Part shown: positions 56,388 to 58,245 of the stretch, one piece after another
How positions within the stretch are numbered: the first letter of the stretch is position 1
How the letters are laid out: the number at the start of each line of letters is the position of its first letter
From: Ignavibacteria bacterium
GTDB lineage: Bacteria; Bacteroidota; Ignavibacteria; UBA10030; SZUA-254
Direction of reading: 5' to 3'
Assembly: GCA_016178595.1 (NCBI GenBank)
Contig: JACOSY010000038.1
Span: 1 to 64,000, forward strand
DNA length: 64,000 bases
Made by a program: the position numbers and the translations under genes
The notes under the pieces: generated by a model
What the model saw: only the letters and a program-made list of their open reading frames with translations
The model's database searches: none
What the model was told of the DNA's origin: nothing

Positions 56388-57158
56388 TTGGAGTATCTGC
56401 GCGTGAAGGACGCCGCCGCTTCAACGGTCTCACACCGTATCAGCGTTATTATCCCGACGCTACAGGAAGAGTCGTGCATTGCGCGCACGCTGCGCCAGTT
56501 CAAACGCGAGTTACGGCAGAAGTACGCACTTGAAATCATCGTCAGTGACGGCGGCAGTACCGACCGAACAATCGAGATTGCACGATCGTTTGCCGATTGC
56601 GTTGTCGAACGGGATCCGAAAGCCCGTGAAAATATTTCCCTTGGTCGTAACCACGGCGCACGTGTCGCTCACGGCGACATCCTTGTCTTCATCAATGCCG
56701 ATGTCATCATCGAGCGCCCTGACGAATTCTTTTCCACCATCATCACGACTGTCGCTCAGGAAAATGTCGCTGCCGCAACGTGCAACGTGCTCATCTATCC
56801 TGAGGAAGAGAATGGTATCGATCGCGTCTTCCACAGATTCTTCAATTGGTACTTCCGGCTGCTGAATGTTTTCGGGATGGGGATGGGAAGAGGAGAATGC
56901 CATGTGATGCGGCGCGAAATCTTCGAGCGCGTGGGAGGATACAATGAAGTACTCGCAGCGGGTGAGGACTACGAGCTGTATCATCGCCTTCACCAAAAGG
57001 GAGAAATTGCCTTCCTTCGTTCGATCAAAGTCTTCGAATCGCCACGCCGGTACCGCAGGTTCGGTTACTTCTATATTACCTTCCTCTGGTTTCTCAACGG
57101 CATTTGGGTCTTGCTCTTCAAGCGATCGTTTGTTGAAGAGTGGAAACCCGTGCGGTGA
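56388..57158 (+). CDS. Family 2 glycosyltransferase
   Basis: A 256-residue GT-A enzyme that transfers a sugar from a nucleotide donor. ISVIIPTLQEESCIARTL, IVSDGGSTDRT and ILVFINADVII (DXD-like Asp) are visible, and FGMGMGRGECHVMRREIFER with the catalytic Asp region GEDYELYHRL follows. It ends in a hydrophobic helix (FYITFLWFLNGIWVLLF) that may dock it on the membrane. The start is a TTG at 56388; a GTG at 56403 is possible. Acceptors are unknown; lipid-linked sugars are usual for this form. Confidence 0.88.
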   Translation: MEYLRVKDAAASTVSHRISVIIPTLQEESCIARTLRQFKRELRQKYALEIIVSDGGSTDRTIEIARSFADCVVERDPKARENISLGRNHGARVAHGDILVFINADVIIERPDEFFSTIITTVAQENVAAATCNVLIYPEEENGIDRVFHRFFNWYFRLLNVFGMGMGRGECHVMRREIFERVGGYNEVLAAGEDYELYHRLHQKGEIAFLRSIKVFESPRRYRRFGYFYITFLWFLNGIWVLLFKRSFVEEWKPVR

Positions 57159-57256: not shown

Positions 57257-57640
57257 ATGGTGAATTCCAAGAATATCGGTCGTACTTTTGAAACTCACCG
57301 CTACACATTATGGCGCGGCCTCGTAGAGCGCGATGACGGCATCTTCATCGCCGATACTATGGTCATCTCCATGGGTGAGCACGGGGCGATGCATGCAAGT
57401 CCGGTAAGTGACCGGACGGAAAAACCCGGGGTCTCAGAATCCGGGGACAGGCTGAAGGACCTTGCCGGGCATAATGTTGCAGAAATACGGCGGGCGATGG
57501 AAGAAGGCAGGAAGTGGGAAATGAGACTGAGGGAGTCTCCGCTCGGGAAGACTCAGCAGGACTTTGTTGCGTACTACGCCGAGGTCATCGCGGTCTTTAC
57601 AGAATGGTACACCGCCCATGGAATACCGCTTCCCCATTAA
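57257..57640 (+). CDS. Hypothetical protein, unknown function
   Basis: A 127-residue soluble protein, no signal or membrane segment. An N-terminal beta-rich part (RYTLWRGLVERDDGIFIADT) precedes a charged helical stretch (HNVAEIRRAMEEGRKWEMRL) and a C-terminal helix. The composition is protein-like, but I know no family. It ends 11 bases before the Mug-like gene, and the two are probably co-transcribed. Confidence 0.6.
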   Translation: MVNSKNIGRTFETHRYTLWRGLVERDDGIFIADTMVISMGEHGAMHASPVSDRTEKPGVSESGDRLKDLAGHNVAEIRRAMEEGRKWEMRLRESPLGKTQQDFVAYYAEVIAVFTEWYTAHGIPLPH

Positions 57641-57651
57641 AGGAATTAATT

Positions 57652-58245
57652 ATGCTGCCAGAGATTTTAATGCAAAACTTGCGTGTTGTATTTGTTGGAA
57701 CAACTATTTCAGAGACGTCGGACGAGCTCGGGTTCTATTATTTGGGTCCGAATAATCGGTTCTGGTTTTTACTTGAATATGCCGGTATCACACCAACGTC
57801 CGTAGTCTCCCCCTCGGAACGCAAAGTGTTATTTGACGCTAAAAAAGATAGAGTGCTCAATGAGATGTATAAGAAACTCTTCTTCGAGAAGAAAGAGACA
57901 GAATTATTGAAGCATCGGATCGGTTTGACCGACCTCAATCGACGACGGGTAATCAGCAATGACGACGATCCGGCGGCAGAACCCACAATGGACGATATTC
58001 AAAAGTTTGTTCGAAAAGTGGAAAAGTACCGACCAAAGCTCGTTGCATTTGTAACAAGCATGGAAATTTTCGAGAACTGTTTTAAGCGCTTATATCCATC
58101 GGTTAATCGACAAAGAGGAAAACAAGACTTCTTGATCGGTCATTCAGAGGTCTGGCTTCTCGGCAGCACCGGTGGGCGTGTCAAAGATACTGAAGGACTA
58201 GAGCAAGTGTTCGAAGACCTTGCCACTCGCCTCGGCGGTTTTTAG
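57652..58245 (+). CDS. Mug/TDG-fold protein with altered catalytic motifs
   Basis: A 197-residue member of the uracil-DNA glycosylase superfamily, closest by eye to mismatch-specific (Mug/TDG) enzymes. The first motif region is GTTISETSDELGFYYLGPNN then RFW; E. coli Mug has GINPG there, so the key Asn is Thr (Thr18). The second motif is LLGSTGGRVKD where Mug has LPNPSGLSR. The rest of the fold (HRIGLTDLNRR, IGHSEVWLL) matches in order and size, with an acidic insert near residue 105. AAAGGA precedes the ATG. The protein may bind damage without cutting, or use other residues. Confidence 0.82.
   Translation: MLPEILMQNLRVVFVGTTISETSDELGFYYLGPNNRFWFLLEYAGITPTSVVSPSERKVLFDAKKDRVLNEMYKKLFFEKKETELLKHRIGLTDLNRRRVISNDDDPAAEPTMDDIQKFVRKVEKYRPKLVAFVTSMEIFENCFKRLYPSVNRQRGKQDFLIGHSEVWLLGSTGGRVKDTEGLEQVFEDLATRLGGF

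Follow-up and report, generated by a model that had tools for sequence, protein, structure and literature searches.

A diverged branch of Mug-fold proteins in Ignavibacteria-type Bacteroidota with an unconserved base-excision pocket

Background

A gene in a 64,000-nucleotide stretch of DNA from an Ignavibacteria bacterium (hereafter the window) encodes a Mug-fold protein which, with a probability that we put at about 0.5, has been repurposed and probably excises no bases. The usual catalytic residues are lost and the pocket is unconserved; the protein therefore probably has another, possibly non-cutting, DNA-related job. Repurposing is the best explanation for a gene that is maintained, with a conserved fold, an unconserved pocket and new invariant residues.

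If the protein does not excise, it would offer a natural test case for the passage from a base-flipping repair enzyme to a binding protein. If it still does, it would show how far the pocket of a uracil-DNA glycosylase (UDG) can drift when catalysis rests on an acid of motif 3. In either case Pfam and NCBIfam would label the branch as ordinary Mug, or miss it. No published account of this branch was found in the open-access literature.

The gene, its fold and its family

The open reading frame (ORF) that starts with the ATG at 57652 is a genuine coding sequence (Table 1). Its product matches the Pfam family UDG (E=1e-7), E. coli Mug (E=1e-11) and Deinococcus MUG (E=5e-10). The AlphaFold (AF2) models of the family were built on shallow alignments; that of the window protein has a pLDDT of 85, and its best PDB matches by Foldseek are 1mug, 1mtl, 2c2p and TDG (E about 1e-10). 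The model of a member from a second taxonomic family has a pLDDT of 88, and Mug and Deinococcus MUG are again its best matches. Pfam, the alignment with E. coli Mug and the model matches thus confirm the Mug fold called in an earlier, sequence-only reading of this DNA, and the structure prediction which that reading had proposed matches Mug, TDG and Deinococcus MUG.

Table 1. Features of the Mug-fold gene and the preceding ORF, in window positions
Feature	Position	Strand	Basis or remark
CDS, Mug-fold protein, 197 aa (P0001)	57652..58245	+	Pfam UDG; AF2/Foldseek; dN/dS
Shine-Dalgarno-like AAGGA, 7 nt 5' of ATG	57640..57644	+	sequence
Motif 1 GTTIS, residues 16-20; Thr18 at the Mug Asn18 site	57697..57711	+	gapless alignment
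Glu21	57712..57714	+	18/19 in the window-type Mug-fold family
NRFW, residues 35-38; RFW invariant	57754..57765	+	family alignment
Family-specific insert, residues about 60-83	57829..57900	+	alignment; helix 71-87 predicted
Invariant F77, K80, K81 (FxxKK) within the insert	57880-57894	+	family alignment
Start of motif 3, GLTDLNRR, residues 91-98	57922..57945	+	N96 invariant; D94 at the Mug K68 site
Acidic motif-3 loop NDDD, residues 103-106	57958..57969	+	region of Deinococcus MUG Asp93
Motif 2 GSTGGR, residues 171-176	58162..58179	+	family alignment
Preceding ORF, 127 aa (P0002), function unknown	57257..57640	+	11 nt upstream of the Mug-fold CDS

Fold and sequence homology place the protein in family 2 (MUG/TDG) of the UDG superfamily. 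The GINPG motif of this family with its catalytic Asn is absent, as is the motif-2 pattern P-[NS]-x-S-[GA], in which the Pro is replaced by Gly171 in all 19 full-length members and the x-S-G part is variable. The NCBIfam Mug equivalog PRK10201 gave 66 bits, below its cut-off of 144. The model for HDG (UDG family 6, DNA-deoxyinosine glycosylase), TIGR04274, gave 20.8 bits against a cut-off of 80, and motif 1 of the window protein is without the Pro of that family.

Homologues of the window type, recognised by a 24-residue insert, occur in 10 of the 15 genomes of the window's own taxonomic family (f1) and in 11 of 21 genomes of a second family of the same order (f5), fragments counted, and in none of the remaining 62 genomes searched of that order. 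In the tree the 19 full-length members group together with support of 100/100, set apart by a branch of 1.2 changes per site, in agreement with one of the earlier suggestions, a new branch of the superfamily. They are a new, strongly diverged MUG/TDG branch, so far seen in two families of one order of Ignavibacteria-type Bacteroidota. Profile comparison brought them nearest to MUG2 (score 168), ahead of MUG1 (131) and HDG (93), and tree tests rejected neither a clade with MUG2 (p=0.39) nor one with MUG1 (p=0.088), although the tree gave the MUG2 clade no positive support either. The dN/dS ratio is 0.07-0.20 across the family and 0.07-0.13 against relatives of the same taxonomic family; the genes are therefore maintained, and the earlier opinion that this is not random decay holds under purifying selection.

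Fragmentary, frameshifted or extra partial copies were observed at G028:C15:18942-19157, G349:C167, G352:C18:432-707 and G004:C119. The sequence nearest to the window's family in the tree, with weak support, is L057:1123-1989 (G361, family f5), in which a MUG2-type domain is fused to an N-terminal part of ~120 aa without a Pfam match.

Conservation of the pocket and of other segments

Since GTTIS aligns with GINPG without gaps, Thr18 occupies the position of Mug Asn18, and in the alignments STGG lies opposite NPSG, so that both replacements described by the sequence-only reading are real. That reading had named homologues restoring Asn18 as evidence against it; position 18 is neither Asn nor Asp in any of the 19 full-length homologues (T8/A8/V2/I1). 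It had also looked to strict conservation of GTTIS and GSTGG as the sign of a distinct function, and here it failed, both motifs being ordinary to variable across the 19 homologues (position 174, for instance, is S8/T3/G2/I2/A2/Q/D). Nor is there support for taking the two motifs as marks of new chemistry: they vary within the family, and Deinococcus MUG is already known to have lost the motif-1 Asn. Motifs 1 and 2 read GTAPS and PSTSP in Deinococcus MUG and GTAVG and PSTSG in Bacteroidota MUG2, and motif 2 of TDG reads PSSSA; set against these sequences, the missing Asn18 and the Ser172-Thr173 pair look normal. All the Mug, MUG2, TDG and HDG sequences in the comparison have the motif-2 Pro that is replaced throughout the window's family. 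R176 has its counterpart in the Arg of TDG SSSAR in the alignment. Of the flanking residues described as kept, RFW is indeed invariant, but IGLTDL corresponds to GVTKLV and WLLG to WVLP in E. coli Mug.

For motifs 1 and 2, conservation was expressed as P, the chance of random columns being equally conserved, over the 19 full-length sequences. Motif 1 (P=0.89) and motif 2 (P=0.55) are of average conservation or worse. In the control family UDGa, taken from the same order, motifs 1, 2 and 3 are invariant or nearly so, and in HDG, whose divergence is equal (mean pair identity 0.52 vs 0.53), motif 1 (P=0.011) and motif 2 (P=0.002) are strongly conserved. Compared with these controls, the family lacks a hallmark of active glycosylases, in which pocket motifs are among the most conserved positions.

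The two taxonomic families differ in this respect. In f5 the pocket columns (16-20, 94 and 173-176, picked after the alignment had been seen, a choice mitigated by the controls) vary more than any other part of the protein (P=5e-5); 5/9 members have lost Gly16, 6/9 carry His at the stacking position 30, and residue 94, equivalent to the base-recognition site K68 of Mug (PMC10776899), is D, E, H, V, Y or N. The model of the f5 member predicts extended strands (12-20 and 90-101) running through the loops of motifs 1 and 3, and these would change the pocket or occupy it. In f1 the pocket varies to an average degree; Gly16, Ser172 and Arg176 are retained, and Asp94 is present in 9/10 members, with V in the other.

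Selection acts elsewhere, on segments that the sequence-only reading missed, except for the RFW it had listed. RFW, LNRR and FxxKK show almost no variation or none, and the 24-residue insert, which is absent from Mug, TDG, MUG2 and HDG, the acidic loop (D/E104, D106) and Gly171 are under selection as well. Asn96 is invariant in the family, with Val or Ala in its place in other Mug-type families. Glu21, present in 18/19 members, is replaced by Leu, Lys or Met in Mug and by Leu in TDG, and is shared with the MUG2-like L057. The GK of the FNGK/LGK segment is lost.

Relation to known glycosylases

E. coli Mug (UDG family 2, MUG1) shares with the window protein the fold, the N-terminal segment, NRFW, GKQ and W168, but has no insert, and its Asn18, Pro19, Gly20, NPSG and Lys68 are all changed in the window protein. 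Human TDG has the same fold, the motif-2 Ser and an Arg at the position of R176; unlike the window protein, it requires its motif-1 Asn140, carries Asn at residue 94 and has no insert. HDG resembles the window protein in having no motif-1 Asn, an Asp opening motif 3 and a motif 2 of the PSTSP type, whereas its G-x-x-P-G motif 1 and its motif 2 are nearly invariant and it is more distant by profile.

The closest parallel is MUG of Deinococcus radiodurans (DR_0715, PDB 2c2p/2c2q), which has the same fold, a motif 1 without Asn, GLTD at the opening of motif 3, the motif-2 Ser-Thr and an acid in the motif-3 loop. The window protein differs from it, at about 26% identity, by the FxxKK insert, by LNRR in place of V-A-K-R, by the exchange of the motif-2 Pro for Gly, by the missing GK segment and by a pocket that is unconserved across its family. 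The catalytic residue of Deinococcus MUG, which has been classed as MUG2, is reported as Asp93 (PMC5128194); loss of the motif-1 Asn is thus not in itself new. The PDB entries 2c2p and 2c2q differ at residue 93 of the chain (D in the former, A in the latter), which lies in the loop that follows motif 3, and the title of 2c2q describes an inactive mutant. Identity of Asp93 with the D of GLTD was rejected, as the difference falls in the SGVDAAL loop.

UDGa and UDGb (families 4 and 5) also rely on motif 3: in family 4 the Asn that positions the water lies in that motif (N89) and not in motif 1, and its family-5 counterpart is N120 (PMC5387724). Both have motifs of their own (GEAPG/HPA), and each is encoded separately in the window's genome; the Mug-fold protein therefore need not supply uracil excision. 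A possible complementary distribution of family-5 UDG and the Mug-fold gene was seen in f1, where four genomes with the gene (G001, G002, G005 and G008) lack family 5 and all five without it (G003, G009, G010, G011 and G014) have family 5. These genomes are too few for significance, and the pattern gives a weak hint of overlapping function.

Possible functions

The course of events that we favour would begin with a MUG2-like ancestor, already without the motif-1 Asn, from which a lineage-specific MUG/TDG branch arose. Afterwards the base-excision pocket (motif 1, residue 94 and motif 2) would have been freed from selection, and strict selection would have shifted to RFW, LNRR, the inserted FxxKK helix, the acidic motif-3 loop and Gly171. 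The Mug-type fold and probably the DNA face would have been retained, and the excision pocket would no longer be needed. The protein may now work mainly by binding, with no base excised, and its target would most simply be DNA, perhaps mismatched or damaged, or else a repair partner. More specifically, and only tentatively, it could be a pseudo-glycosylase, no longer able to excise bases and specialised in binding DNA or mismatches, whose gene has become stably fixed in a single bacterial lineage. A putative role as a damage-binding protein, as proposed by the sequence-only reading, is compatible with the drift of the pocket. Two observations argue against repurposing: D/E104 (19/19) and D106 are conserved where Deinococcus MUG has its catalytic Asp93, as would be expected of an enzyme, and the pocket of f1 is average, not decayed, and could have been loosened by a broad or unusual substrate. 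The distribution of family-5 UDG in f1 is a further, weak pointer in this direction.

The same acids are the core of the strongest alternative, an active MUG2-like glycosylase, which we consider possible but somewhat doubtful. Here D104 or D106 would activate water like Asp93, D94 would recognise the base and R176 would plug the helix like the Arg of TDG SSSAR. Residue 106 of the NDDD loop is Asp in 18/19 members, the MUG2 sequences L036, L063 and L057 have an Asp in the same loop, and Asp93 itself falls within NDDD in three alignments, although its partner is ambiguous by 1-3 residues, being N103 in the gapless alignment, D104 with MAFFT and D106 with HHalign. The proximity of the MUG2 profile and the joint clade that was not rejected also speak for such an enzyme. 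Against it stand pocket motifs that are unconserved, unlike those of the control glycosylases, the replacement of residue 94 by H, V, Y, E or N in relatives (by V even within f1), and the loss of the near-universal motif-2 Pro and of the GK of the FNGK/LGK segment. Moreover, an acid at 106 is common to Mug, TDG and HDG, and may therefore be structural. With Gly16, Asp94, Ser172, Arg176 and the acidic loop kept, f1 fits this alternative better than f5 does, and it is in f1 that residual excision is most plausible.

It is unlikely that a new active site has arisen elsewhere on the fold, formed by E21, N96, R97, R98 and the FxxKK helix and serving another reaction or acting on another substrate. 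All of these positions show little or no variation within the family, and no other Mug-type family compared has N96 or the insert, but the same residues could equally be needed for contacts with DNA or a partner, or for folding. Decay of an ordinary Mug gene is very improbable: fragments or frameshifted copies do occur in a few relatives (G028, G349 and G352), but the low dN/dS and 19 intact members over two taxonomic families, with many invariant positions, argue against it, and for the window's own gene the selection test refutes it.

Genomic neighbourhood and related genes

No conserved operon was found around the Mug-fold gene, synteny being limited to close relatives. No family member was found in viral contigs, the phage and plasmid matches being ordinary Mug, and PADLOC gave no match for the protein. 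The preceding ORF, already noted as a protein of unknown function, has no Pfam family above cut-off. A relative with 52-56% identity was found in 1/39 related genomes (G007), the two sharing the conserved segment SPLGKTQQDFVAYY; it lies in the same neighbourhood, some 6-7 kb from the Mug-fold gene of G007. A role of this ORF as a functional partner was rejected, as it occurs in one other genome only and is not adjacent there. Further upstream, 56388-57158 encodes a GT2 glycosyltransferase resembling TIGR04283 (arsenosugar-type; 121 bits, below the cut-off of 182).

Two MUG2-type genes of another Bacteroidota family, L146:4692-6082 (G175) and L147:4878-6411 (G380), are 59% identical, and each overlaps the start of a nuclease-like gene, by 4 nt with a NucS_C/PD-(D/E)XK protein in L146 and by 14 nt with a CoiA_N-domain protein in L147. 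A CoiA-like gene adjoins the L146 pair and a type I HsdM gene follows the L147 pair; integrase, helicase, P-loop ATPase and QueC-like genes were recognised by eye near the former. The arrangement suggests defence islands in which a glycosylase is paired with a nuclease.
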